Shown here: piece after piece, positions 2,391-14,189 of the stretch | Layout: each line of letters begins with the position of its first letter | Numbering within the stretch: position 1 is the first letter of the stretch | From: a virus | Length of the DNA stretch: 25,242 bases | Strand: one strand, 5' to 3' | IMG/VR virus record: IMGVR_UViG_3300032278_000109 | Span: 1 to 25,242 of that record | Made by a program: the position numbers and the translations under genes | Notes under the pieces: model-generated | Database searches by the model: none | Seen by the model: the letters and a program-made list of their open reading frames with translations, nothing else | Told to the model about the DNA's origin: nothing

Positions 2391-2574
2391 TCCCGAAGGC
2401 TTCCGCCACCTGGGCGGCGTGGCGGCGCAGCTGGTAGCGACCGCGCAGCTCGCCCGCATCGCCCGCCTCCACGCGGAGCGGCGCGCCCCCGACCTCGGCG
2501 ATGGCGAGGGGCCCGTCGACGCGCCTGCCGCTGCGGGTGGCAGCCGCGCCGCGGACAGCGCCGGGCGGGCCTGA
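2380..2574 (+). CDS. Small protein of unknown function
   Basis: A 64-residue product (MTDDPEGFRHLGG...) wedged between the DUF6378-like gene, which it overlaps by 11 bases, and the primase gene, whose ATG overlaps its stop. A GTG at 2377 is an alternative start one codon upstream. The first two thirds are helical and charged, and the C-terminus is a low-complexity Ala/Gly/Pro tail. No domain is recognised. The tight overlaps on both sides support it being translated as part of the early operon. Confidence 0.5.
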   Translation: MTDDPEGFRHLGGVAAQLVATAQLARIARLHAERRAPDLGDGEGPVDAPAAAGGSRAADSAGRA

Positions 2575-3779
2575 TGGGGTACGATCTGGATGAGGTCCGG
2601 GCCCTCGCGCCCATCGAAGCCGTGATCGGTCGCCACGTCGACTGGGACCGCGGAAAGACGCGGGCGGCGAAGGGCGAGTTCTGGGCCTGCTGCCCGTTCC
2701 ACGCCGAGCGCTCCCCCAGCTTCAAGGTCGACGCGCAGCGCGGGTTCTTCCGGTGCTTCGGCTGCGGGGCCAAGGGCGACCTGTTCAGCTTCGTGATGCA
2801 GATGGACGGCGTGGAGTTCGCCGAGGCCGTCCGACGCCTGGCCGAGGGCGCCGGCGTCGACGCCGAGGGCGAAAGCCCGGCCGAGCGGCAGGCGCGGCGC
2901 GAGGCGCAAGCCCGGCGCCGCGCCGAGGCGCAGGCTCGCGAGGCCCTGGACCGCGCGGGCCGCATCGAGGGCGCGGCCGAGATATGGGCGGCCGCCCAAC
3001 CCGACCACCCGTTGTTGGCCGCCTACCTCGCGGCCCGGGGCGTCCTGGTCGATGCGATCCGCGATCGGACCGGGGCCCTGCCGGCCACGCTGCGCCTGCA
3101 CCCGGACCTGCCGTTCTGGGCGCGCCGGAAGGGAGCCTCGCGGCCGGAGATCCTGCACAGCGGCCCGGCGATGATCGCCCGCATCGGCCGCGAGGGACGG
3201 TTCCGCGGCGTGCACAGAACCTGGATCACCGAAACCGGCCGGGCGAGGGTCGGCGGGCGGAAGCTCGACAAGCGCATGCTGGGCGAGGTGAAGACCTTCG
3301 GCGTCCGCTTCGGCCGCCCCTCGGCGCGCATGGTCGCCGGCGAGGGCATCGAGACGACCCTGTGCGTGTGGTCGCGCCTGCTCGCCCGCGGGGAGACGGA
3401 CTGGTCCGCCGAGGCGGCGCTGTCGCGCGACGCGCTGGCCGGGCCCGGGCTCGACCACGTCGGCGAGCGGCGGATCAACCCCGTGACCGGCCAGCCATGG
3501 CCCTCGGCCTTCCCGGATTTCGAAGAAGAGGCGTGGTTCGCGCCCGAGGTGGTCGACGAGCTGGTGCTGCTGGCCGAGGGGAGCGCGAAGGACCCGGTCA
3601 CGGCCGAGATCCTGACGCGCCGGGCTGAGCGCCGACACCGGGTCCGCCCCAGCGGCGCAGCGCGCATCTGCACCAGCCGCCTGCCGGGCGGGCGTTGGGA
3701 TTCCGACCTCGACTTCGCCGACCTGGCGGCCGCCGAGATCGAGGCGGGGGAGCGAGGGGGAGGGTCGCGTGGAAGATGA
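2574..3779 (+). CDS. Primase-like protein: CHC2 zinc finger plus Toprim domain
   Basis: A 401-residue protein. The N-terminal CHC2 zinc finger has C40, H43, C61 and C64 (CPFH and CFGC) and contacts template DNA in DnaG-type primases. Residues 100-130 form a charged helical linker. The C-terminal Toprim-like half has the conserved GEGIET (256-261, E257). Where phage Toprim primases usually have the metal-binding DxD, this protein reads LLAEGSAKD (332-340), and DLDFADL near 378-384 follows. It would lay down RNA primers together with the D5-type helicase encoded next. The start at 2574 overlaps the preceding stop (TGATG), and the 3' end overlaps the helicase GTG by 11 bases. The altered DxD site raises doubt about catalytic competence. 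Confidence 0.82.
   Translation: MGYDLDEVRALAPIEAVIGRHVDWDRGKTRAAKGEFWACCPFHAERSPSFKVDAQRGFFRCFGCGAKGDLFSFVMQMDGVEFAEAVRRLAEGAGVDAEGESPAERQARREAQARRRAEAQAREALDRAGRIEGAAEIWAAAQPDHPLLAAYLAARGVLVDAIRDRTGALPATLRLHPDLPFWARRKGASRPEILHSGPAMIARIGREGRFRGVHRTWITETGRARVGGRKLDKRMLGEVKTFGVRFGRPSARMVAGEGIETTLCVWSRLLARGETDWSAEAALSRDALAGPGLDHVGERRINPVTGQPWPSAFPDFEEEAWFAPEVVDELVLLAEGSAKDPVTAEILTRRAERRHRVRPSGAARICTSRLPGGRWDSDLDFADLAAAEIEAGERGGGSRGR
3746..3765 (+). repeat. Outlying copy of the G-rich replication-region repeat
   Basis: GGGGGAGCGAGGGGGAGGGT matches 5448-5467 at 19 of 20 positions (an A for a T at one site). It lies in the last codons of the primase gene and directly before the helicase GTG at 3769, where its GGGGGAGGG also serves as a possible Shine-Dalgarno. 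The match to the cluster after the helicase gene is too long for chance. Confidence 0.75.
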
Positions 3780-5424
3780 GGGGAACCCTGGCGGCGCGAT
3801 GGGCGACTTCGACGCCGGGCCGCCGGAGCACGAGGCGGATATCCTGACGCGGGCGCGGTTGCCGCGGACCGACGTCGGCAACGGGCGGCGCCTGCGCATG
3901 GCGCATGGGGACTCGGTCCGATATGTGCCCGGCCGCGGCTGGATCGTCTGGAACGGGCGCATCTGGGAGGCCGAGTTCGGCGACACGGCGATCCTGTCGG
4001 TCGGCGAGACGCTGCCCGACCTCGTGCTCGCGGAGGCGGCCGCGCTCGCCGAGGGGCCGGTCTCGAAACACGAGATCGCCGAGTGGCTGAAGGACAACGA
4101 CAGCGACGACCAGGCGGCGGCGCGCAAGGCGATCAAGTCGGCCCGGAAGAAGACCCATGCCGGCTGGGCGAAGACCTGCGGGGCGCTCGCGCGGATCAAT
4201 GCCGCCCTGACCCTGCTGCGGGATCACTGCCGCGCCCGGGTGATCGACCTCGACGCGAAGCCCTTCTCGGTCACGGCGCAGAACGGCGAGATCGACCTCG
4301 AGGCGCTGGCCGGGGTGGACCTCGGCGCCCGCGCCACGGCCGACCCCGATGACCCGGACGACGTCGCGGCCGTCGAACGCGAGATCAGGGAAGCCCTGGC
4401 GGCGGCGCAGCGGCCCTTCGACAAGGCCGGGCTGTCGACCCGGATGCTGGGCTGCGACTTCGATCCCTCGGCCGAGGCGCCGCGCTGGCGCAGGTTCCTC
4501 GAGATCGCCCTTCCCGACCCCGAGATGCGCGCCTTCGCGCAGCGGCTTGCGGGCTACCTCCTGTCGGGCCGAAACGAGGCGCAGATCGCGCTCGTGCTCC
4601 TGGGGCCGGGCGGGAACGGCAAATCGACGTTCATGGCCGGCTTGTCCCGCGTGCTGGGAACCTACGCCGCCGCCTGCCGCATCGAGATGTTCCTCGAGTC
4701 CCGGACGGCGACGCAGGGCCCCACGCCCGAGGAGGCGATCCTGCCGGGCGCGCGGGCCTATCCCGCCTCCGAGCCCGAGCCCGGGGCGACGCTGAGCTCA
4801 TCGAAGATCAAGGGCATGACCGGCGGGGAGCGCCGACTCGCCCACGCCAAGGGCAAGGATCCTTTCGAGTGGCTTCCCCAGGGCGTCCCGATCCTGAGCT
4901 TCAACAAGGTCCCGCGCATCACCGACGAGTCCGACGGCATGTGGCGGCGGCTGACCTTCCTGCCGTTCGGGGTCTACCTGCCGGCGCTGCCGGGCGACCA
5001 GCGGGTCAGCCCTGCCGAGATGGAGCGCATCGTCGACGCCGAGGCGTCCGGCATCCTCAACTGGATGGTCGAGGGCTGGATCGCCTACCGCGCCTCGGGC
5101 CTGGCCCCGCCGGCCGAGGCCGATGAGATCAAGGCGCGCCAGCGGGCCCTGGCCGACCCCATCGGCGAGTTCCTGGCGGACTGCACGGTGTCCGAGCCCG
5201 CCACGTCGCTGCAGTCGTCGGAGATGCACAAGGTCTTCGAGAAGTGGTGCGAGGCGAACGGCACCCAGCCGCATTCCATCGTCAAGTTCTCCAAGACGCT
5301 CCTCGACAAGGGGTTCGTCCGGTCGAAGGTCCGGGGCGTGAACGTCTGGCGCTTCCTCGCCTGGAACCCCTCCGACGACGTCTGGCAGCTCCGCCTGAAG
5401 GCCGACCCGGAGGCGCGGCCATGA
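3769..5424 (+). CDS. D5-type SF3 replicative helicase (phage/plasmid primase-helicase family)
   Basis: A 551-residue protein. Residues about 100-245 resemble the D5 N-terminal domain. The SF3 AAA+ domain has Walker A GPGGNGKST (279-287), an acidic Walker-B-like segment ARAYPASEPEPG (328-339), sensor 1 SFNKVP (377-382) and an arginine-finger region DGMWRRL (389-395). A C-terminal winged-helix-like region (about 480-540) ends the protein. Such proteins unwind DNA at phage and plasmid origins and often pair with a separate primase, as here. The GTG at 3769 follows a strong purine tract; an ATG at 3799 is an alternative start. The stop overlaps an ATG at 5421 and is followed at once by the repeat cluster. 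Confidence 0.88.
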   Translation: MEDEGNPGGAMGDFDAGPPEHEADILTRARLPRTDVGNGRRLRMAHGDSVRYVPGRGWIVWNGRIWEAEFGDTAILSVGETLPDLVLAEAAALAEGPVSKHEIAEWLKDNDSDDQAAARKAIKSARKKTHAGWAKTCGALARINAALTLLRDHCRARVIDLDAKPFSVTAQNGEIDLEALAGVDLGARATADPDDPDDVAAVEREIREALAAAQRPFDKAGLSTRMLGCDFDPSAEAPRWRRFLEIALPDPEMRAFAQRLAGYLLSGRNEAQIALVLLGPGGNGKSTFMAGLSRVLGTYAAACRIEMFLESRTATQGPTPEEAILPGARAYPASEPEPGATLSSSKIKGMTGGERRLAHAKGKDPFEWLPQGVPILSFNKVPRITDESDGMWRRLTFLPFGVYLPALPGDQRVSPAEMERIVDAEASGILNWMVEGWIAYRASGLAPPAEADEIKARQRALADPIGEFLADCTVSEPATSLQSSEMHKVFEKWCEANGTQPHSIVKFSKTLLDKGFVRSKVRGVNVWRFLAWNPSDDVWQLRLKADPEARP

Positions 5425-5447
5425 CCCCCCGCACCGTCATCGACGCC

Positions 5448-5751
5448 GGGGGAGCGTGGGGGAGGGTTGGGGCGCAACTCTCCCCTGAACCCTCCCCCGG
5501 AGCCTCCCCCCGGCAGGGCGCCCGGGCCGCGGCAGCGGCGACGCGCGCCGTGAAGCCTTGCGAACTCTCCCCACCCTCCCCCAACCCTCCCCCGGTTTCG
5601 ACGCGAATAAGCGTTGAGGATCAACGACCCGGGGGAGGGTGGGGAGGATGGGGAGGGTTGCCCTGTGCGCATCTATCCGCCCGCACCACGTCCTTAAGAG
5701 GGAAATATACTATGAGCAGGAAAAACCCTCCCCACTCTCCCTCTCTCCCCC
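5448..5751. repeat. Cluster of GGGGGAGGGT iteron-like repeats in both orientations; candidate replication origin
   Basis: The core GGGGAGGGT occurs seven times here: + orientation at 5459-5467, 5632-5640 and 5650-5658; - orientation (ACCCTCCCC) at 5489-5497, 5573-5581, 5584-5592 and 5725-5733. They fall into five blocks (5448-5472 G-rich, 5476-5513 C-rich, 5563-5595 C-rich, 5628-5660 G-rich, 5725-5751 C-rich). Blocks three and four form a perfect 12-bp inverted repeat (5584-5595 with 5629-5640). Between them is a less GC-rich 33-base spacer holding a second dyad, cgttga-gga-tcaacg (5612-5626). Iterons next to a D5-type helicase gene are typical of replication origins. The frame through this region stays open, so a coding role for part of it is not excluded. 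Function is inferred. Confidence 0.65.
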
Positions 5752-6434
5752 AGGGGCCATCCGTCGACTGGTCAGCCGCCTACGGCGTTCGCGTCGCGCC
5801 GCAGGAGGTCGCGCTCGCGAAGCACGTCGAGCGGGTGATGACCGGCGCGCGCGACCGGCTCGACGGCCCGCTCAACGACGTAGGGCCGCGCGGCCCGGCC
5901 CGGCCCGAGCTGCGGCGCGAGGAGGTCGAGGTCGCGGCCTATGATCCCGCGGCGCGGGTGATGAAGACCACCACCCAGCAGGTGATGCGCCGCGCGCCTG
6001 CGCGGGTGCTGCGGGGCCTGCCGGACGGCTGCCAGGCCGCGGCCCGCGAGTACGAAGGGCTCGTTGAGCGGATCGCCTCGATCCGCGGCCCGGGCGACGG
6101 CCGAGGCGGCGGGGTGAGCGACGGCGGCGCGACGACCCGCTGCGCCTGGGCGGAGCGGCTGCGCACCTGGGAGGCGGTGATCGGGCAGGAGGTGGTGATC
6201 GCCCAGCGGGGCGTGCACGCCCATGCCGACCGCGGGCGACGGGCGATCACGCGGCTCGACGTGGTGCGGGCCGTGGTGCTCGACGGGAAGGGGACCGGCG
6301 ACGTGCTGGCGCGGTTCGGGTGGTCGAGGCTTGCGGCCAACCAGGTGGCCGTCCGCGAGGCTCTGTGCGAGGCGTTGATGGACCTCGCCGAGCATCTGGG
6401 ACTGGCCGACCCACGGGCGCGACGACGGGCTTGA
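5712..6434 (+). CDS. Putative phage regulator with C-terminal helix-turn-helix-like region
   Basis: A 240-residue protein. The ATG at 5712 is preceded by AAGAGGGA (5696-5703), a good Shine-Dalgarno, in a short AT-rich patch. The frame is open upstream to an ATG at 5421 that overlaps the helicase stop, which would give 337 residues, but the extra part only translates the repeats into Pro/Ser/Gly. Residues 71-125 are helical; residues 180-228 look like a helix-turn-helix unit (LDVVRAVVLDGKGTGDVLA then RFGWSRLAANQVAVREALC). A DNA-binding regulator placed between the replication and packaging genes could switch on late genes, as Q or ArpU proteins do elsewhere. This role is inferred from layout; no family is recognised with confidence. 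Confidence 0.6.
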   Translation: MSRKNPPHSPSLPQGPSVDWSAAYGVRVAPQEVALAKHVERVMTGARDRLDGPLNDVGPRGPARPELRREEVEVAAYDPAARVMKTTTQQVMRRAPARVLRGLPDGCQAAAREYEGLVERIASIRGPGDGRGGGVSDGGATTRCAWAERLRTWEAVIGQEVVIAQRGVHAHADRGRRAITRLDVVRAVVLDGKGTGDVLARFGWSRLAANQVAVREALCEALMDLAEHLGLADPRARRRA

Positions 6435-14150: not shown

Positions 14151-14189
14151 CACCCTCCCCCGATCATCTTTCCTTCGGAGGCCATGAAC

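Follow-up and report, generated by a model that had tools for sequence, protein, structure and literature searches.

The segment at 5449-5750 is very probably an iteron replication origin of a tailed phage, read by the phage's own D5/SF3 helicase. It lies in a 25,242-base IMG/VR virus record (hereafter, the window) with a GC content of about 70%. A candidate origin beside the D5 gene had already been proposed from the letters of this DNA, as a kind that could not be named. The location is supported, as repeat arrays are present beside the D5 gene in most of the D5 relatives examined, and the kind does have a name: it is that of P4 crr, the SaPI ori and phage A2, in which an iteron origin follows immediately on an SF3/D5 helicase gene. 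Origins of this kind are known from other viruses; here, the spacing of the sites is kept exactly while the letters of the iteron change.

Iteron sites downstream of the D5 helicase gene

The 9-mer GGGGAGGGT was present in nine exact copies in the window, compared to 0.44 expected from shuffles. Seven of these copies lie within 5459-5733, three on the + strand (5459, 5632 and 5650) and four on the - strand (5489, 5573, 5584 and 5725), so the count given in the sequence-only reading (seven copies, four of them inverted) was exact. With up to two mismatches to the 9-bp GGGGAGGGT consensus allowed, 14 sites were found in 5449-5750, seven of them exact. The array begins 25 bases past the D5 stop codon and consists of short iterons in both orientations (Table 1). 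The segment's own first-order Markov model produced at most one exact GGGGAGGGT copy in 1000 trials, and other clusters in the window reached at most eight sites for any word, compared to 12 sites in this array.

Table 1. Positions of the proposed origin's elements and of the neighbouring genes in the window.
Feature	Positions	Strand	Basis or remark
DnaG-type primase (CHC2 zinc finger, DUF7146)	2574..3779	+	
D5-type SF3 helicase, 551 aa, predicted initiator	3769..5424	+	Pfam D5_N, Pox_D5, DUF5906
D5 C-terminal winged-helix domain, proposed iteron reader	5137..5424	+	AlphaFold2 model, pLDDT 91
Accessory 5' iterons	5449-5457, 5459-5467	+	site scan
Accessory 5' iterons	5477-5485, 5489-5497, 5501-5509	-	site scan
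Core left array, inverted	5564-5572, 5573-5581, 5584-5592	-	steps 9, 11; layout kept in relatives
Spacer between core arrays	5593..5631		holds inner dyad 5612-5626
Core right array, direct	5632-5640, 5641-5649, 5650-5658	+	steps 9, 9
AT-rich segment, candidate unwinding element	5691..5730		60% AT in 40 b, top 0.024% of window
Next gene, likely start ATG 5712	5712..6434	+	
Third array, inverted	5725-5733, 5734-5742, 5742-5750	-	overlaps start of next ORF

In the window, three inverted sites (steps of 9 and 11) are separated by a gap of 40 from three direct sites (steps of 9 and 9), and a third, inverted set follows. Counted from the D5 stop codon, the 5' ends of the core sites fall at 148, 157 and 168 bases (inverted) and at 208, 217 and 226 bases (direct). 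In L006, the nearest D5 relative found (63% identity), the corresponding position is occupied by an AT-rich stretch and by G-rich repeats of both orientations, and the window's accessory 5' iterons are partly matched there at about equal offsets (24 bases, direct; 61 and 83 bases, inverted). The core spacer is AT-rich in many relatives and less so in the window. Folding of 5520-5565 of the window was no better than that of shuffles. GC skew, which had been suggested as a check on the origin, gave no clear signal and no switch at the array in the window, a linear 25-kb contig that may be incomplete.

The D5 protein matched the DNA primase family phrog_1156 with an E-value of 4e-100, and its AlphaFold2 model (pLDDT 87) matched the ASFV primase-polymerase, the SaPI5 primase-helicase (7ola) and poxvirus E5. 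The DnaG-type primase is the likely partner of the D5 helicase. For the last 95 residues of D5, the best PDB match by Foldseek was the DNA-binding domain of RFX in complex with X-box DNA (1dp7); the match is clean but weak (TM 0.74 normalised to the target, E 0.004). From the model, the C-terminus is predicted to fold as an RFX-like winged helix, and RFX relies largely on its wing to read DNA. The origin-binding domain of P4 alpha was absent among the 50 matches listed for the D5 C-terminal domain. No Pfam match was found for the next gene; its frame is open throughout 5421-6434, from an ATG at 5421, and the array may therefore be partly translated as an N-terminal extension of that gene.

Iteron-like sites were also seen at two other places in the window. 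Two tandem copies (GGGGGAGCGAGGGGGAGGGT) lie at 3746-3765 (+ strand), just 5' of the D5 start codon, and include a further exact GGGGAGGGT copy at 3757-3765, right before that codon; these copies are possibly an autoregulatory site or a ribosome-binding site. A lone exact iteron is found at 14152-14160 (- strand), shortly 5' of an ORF start at 14184.

Spacing of the sites in relatives

A search of genome contigs with a single D5 protein as query found nothing, and the search with a D5 alignment as the query was successful. The iteron of the array differs from relative to relative (e.g., GGTGAGGAA, AGTGAGGCT, TTGGGGATG and GGTGACAGA). Some of the relatives' flanks were read by eye, and the statistical claims rest on separate computed scans. 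Pairs of RGKGA cores exactly 9 bp apart on one strand were found 51 times in 22 kb of D5 flanks, a density of 2.29 per kb compared to 0.016 per kb in the remainder of these loci.

A layout scan scored whether six 9-mers at set offsets agree mutually, whatever their sequence, with a maximum score of 54. The layout 9-11-gap-9-9 ranked first of 320 in 18 relatives with the window left out, and it was also first of 320 in the window alone. Scores of at least 42/54 were obtained 34 times in D5 3' flanks (nine phages) and never outside them, over approximately 1.4 million position-gap tests; the window had the top layout score, 52/54. Steps of 9, 11, 39, 9 and 9 were present with other iterons in L247, L249, L251, L255 and L256, and relatives keeping the layout had iterons as different as GGTGAAGGG, AGTGAGGCT and CGGCACTTT. 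These data show that the spacing of the sites is conserved downstream of D5 genes, and spacing, rather than sequence, gives a way to find origins. For poorly studied Rhodobacterales-type phages and prophages, the origin is predicted to single-base precision.

Among 58 further non-duplicate loci, five D5 flanks and no positions outside the flanks reached the threshold. Distant D5 phages (RR1-A, KeAlii, R9Y1 and phi_270) had other arrays, or none right after D5. Taken together, the five passing loci and the distant phages indicate that the exact layout belongs to close relatives. One of the five, an Amaricoccus MAG (L300), had the same layout 160 bases past its D5 stop codon with an unrelated iteron, CGGCACTTT, and a score of 47/54.

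Clusters of GGGGAGGGT were also considered as a signature of D5 phages and rejected. A D5_N match was present in only 7 of the 43 contigs examined, one of the seven (L006) having been chosen for its D5 gene and not for the repeat. Taken alone, the 9-mer is thus no marker of D5. Some of the other GGGGAGGGT clusters appear to sit within coding sequence.

Joint change of the winged helix and the iterons

Residue 520, which falls in the predicted wing of the D5 winged helix, is P in the nine phages whose iterons read RGTGA; in close relatives with iterons of the form RGGGA, it is K. Because K is also present with other iterons in remote members, residue 520 is to be taken as a lead rather than a code. 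When the tree was built from the D5 protein minus its C-terminal domain, L285 came out within the P group as the sister of L249 (support 100/97). L285, however, has K520 and GGGGA iterons, whereas its sister L249 has P520 and GGTGA. The two proteins are 82-98% identical before the C-terminal domain and 66-69% identical in the C-terminal segments, where L249 and L253 share 91-97% identity. The tree of the C-terminal domain rejected L249 and L285 as sisters (p-AU 0.0005), in a test for which this pair was picked after the first tree was seen. A single evolutionary event for the change at residue 520 was rejected, as L285 represents a second event in the larger tree.

The simplest account of these sequences is that the winged helix of L285 and the adjacent iterons were exchanged together. 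A joint exchange of domain and iterons would support the D5 winged helix as the reader of the iterons, and L249/L285, as a naturally occurring pair, would allow initiator specificity to be tested directly by swapping the domain. A wider proposal, toward which we are close to neutral but lean slightly against as a whole, is that the winged helix and the adjoining origin form one exchangeable cassette, in which the D5 oligomer sets the spacing and wing residue 520 (K/P) helps to choose iteron base 3 (G/T). If this were true, iteron spacing would stay fixed because it is dictated by the oligomer, and a phage would change its origin specificity by replacing its iterons jointly with the 3' end of its helicase gene.

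We infer the following course of initiation at the array. The predicted C-terminal winged helix of D5 would bind the 9-bp iterons, and two D5 oligomers of opposite orientation would assemble on the inverted and direct core triplets, which lie approximately 40 bp from each other. Melting would occur at the core spacer or at the AT-rich segment 5691-5730. D5 hexamers would then load and act as helicases in opposite directions, making initiation bidirectional, and the neighbouring DnaG-type primase would prime. An accessory or regulatory role is possible for the third array, which covers the start of the next gene.

Known origins and alternative explanations

By analogy, P4, SaPI and phage A2 are precedents for an origin at the 3' side of the helicase gene. 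P4 alpha binds origin repeats through a winged helix, and pRN1 has an essential region downstream of its replication gene (PMC4234260). In SaPI, the C-terminal domain of Rep reads iterons that lie immediately downstream of the gene encoding Rep (PMC7581432). Like the window, the SaPI Rep-ori and the putative origin of SCCmec Cch2 combine an SF3/D5 helicase with iterons directly downstream; unlike the window phage, they belong to staphylococcal satellite and cassette elements. In Lactobacillus phage A2, the annotated rep_origin overlaps the D5-type primase gene at its 3' end, and iterons near AACGGGAGGA lie in both orientations around an AT-rich stretch, but the genome is AT-rich and both iteron and layout are different. 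Dinoroseobacter phage R4C and Rhodobacter phage RcCronus (Cronusvirus), with approximately 35% D5 identity, have the same gene order as the window and, after D5, G-rich iterons in both orientations together with an AT-rich stretch; iteron sequence and exact spacing vary. The R4C and RcCronus literature checked yielded no text on the origin.

P4 resembles the window in that a D5-family helicase gene is followed immediately by short repeats (GGTGAACA), which are spaced by 9 bp and occur in both orientations; crr begins just past the alpha stop codon. The type 1 repeat of P4 differs from the window iteron, and only the RGKGA core pattern is common to both; the core of the P4 repeat, GGTGA, conforms to the RGKGA pattern seen in closer relatives of the window. 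In P4, unlike the window, a separate origin carries another array, crr is a duplicated element of 120 bp, and primase and helicase are fused; the layout scan did not find the 9-11-40-9-9 layout in P4.

The comparison with P4 raises the alternative that D5 binds the array as a crr-like accessory or copy-control site while initiation takes place elsewhere. P4 crr is needed in cis, yet the annotated origin is a separate ori, and the P4 record puts crr directly 3' of alpha with the origin approximately 4.5 kb away. We consider this explanation unlikely for the window, which contains no second cluster of comparable density, and the annotated origin of phage A2 lies at the equivalent place. The array might instead be an operator or terminator array that controls the next gene and is unrelated to replication, as its sites lie between two genes and the third array overlaps the start of the next ORF. 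This is quite improbable, given that no sigma-70-like promoter or terminator was found and that the array goes with the D5 gene and varies together with the D5 winged helix.

The sequence-only reading had described an origin built around an inner dyad and capable of forming G-quadruplexes. G4 motifs do alternate between strands here, and the array holds five of the six canonical motifs of the whole window, on both strands, consistent with alternating-strand, four-stranded structures that drive or regulate initiation or transcription. However, 14 of the 27 scanned D5 flanks had no canonical G4 motif on either strand. The motifs are thus not conserved across D5 flanks, as a G-quadruplex-dependent origin would require, and relatives with the same layout and iterons such as AGTGAGGCT (L247, L251, L253 and L256) lack them. 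Quadruplexes would also leave the exact, sequence-independent 9-bp spacing unexplained. We regard this explanation as highly improbable, and a quadruplex mechanism is no longer needed for the origin. A literature search for the repeat returned papers on the c-MYC quadruplex and none on phages.

The perfect 12-bp inverted repeat (5584-5595 / 5629-5640) and the inner dyad, CGTTGA-GGA-TCAACG, are both present as described. Perfect stems of at least 6 bp with loops of 3-5 are found once per 355 bases in the window, so the dyad alone is unremarkable, and none was seen at that place in L006; it was rejected as a conserved element and does not hold up as a working principle. The G4 motifs and the dyad are best read as by-products of G-rich iterons, and they are possibly helpers in the window phage. 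Functionless simple-sequence drift in G-rich DNA, for which the high GC content of the genome might be cited, deserves almost no credence, as the chance controls and a layout kept across divergent iteron sequences make it very unlikely.

Other sequence elements were seen in the relatives. Eight of them (L247, L249, L251, L253, L254, L255, L256 and L259) have a hairpin 93-168 bases past the D5 stop codon, one per locus, with a perfect stem of 7-8 bp whose bases covary and a TNGTC loop. This hairpin, which is absent from the window in that form, may be a site of priming or of single-strand initiation. In L248, L266, L268, L155, L061 and L274, inverted repeat arrays are separated by alternating GC/GT (Z-DNA-like) tracts, and many roseophage-type relatives have CCCCGCGCCCC right after the D5 stop codon. 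Repeats of the GGGGAGGGTGACA type, seemingly within a helix-turn-helix gene, were seen by eye in L033 (2984 onward), L017 and L172, and these resemble lambda O iterons.
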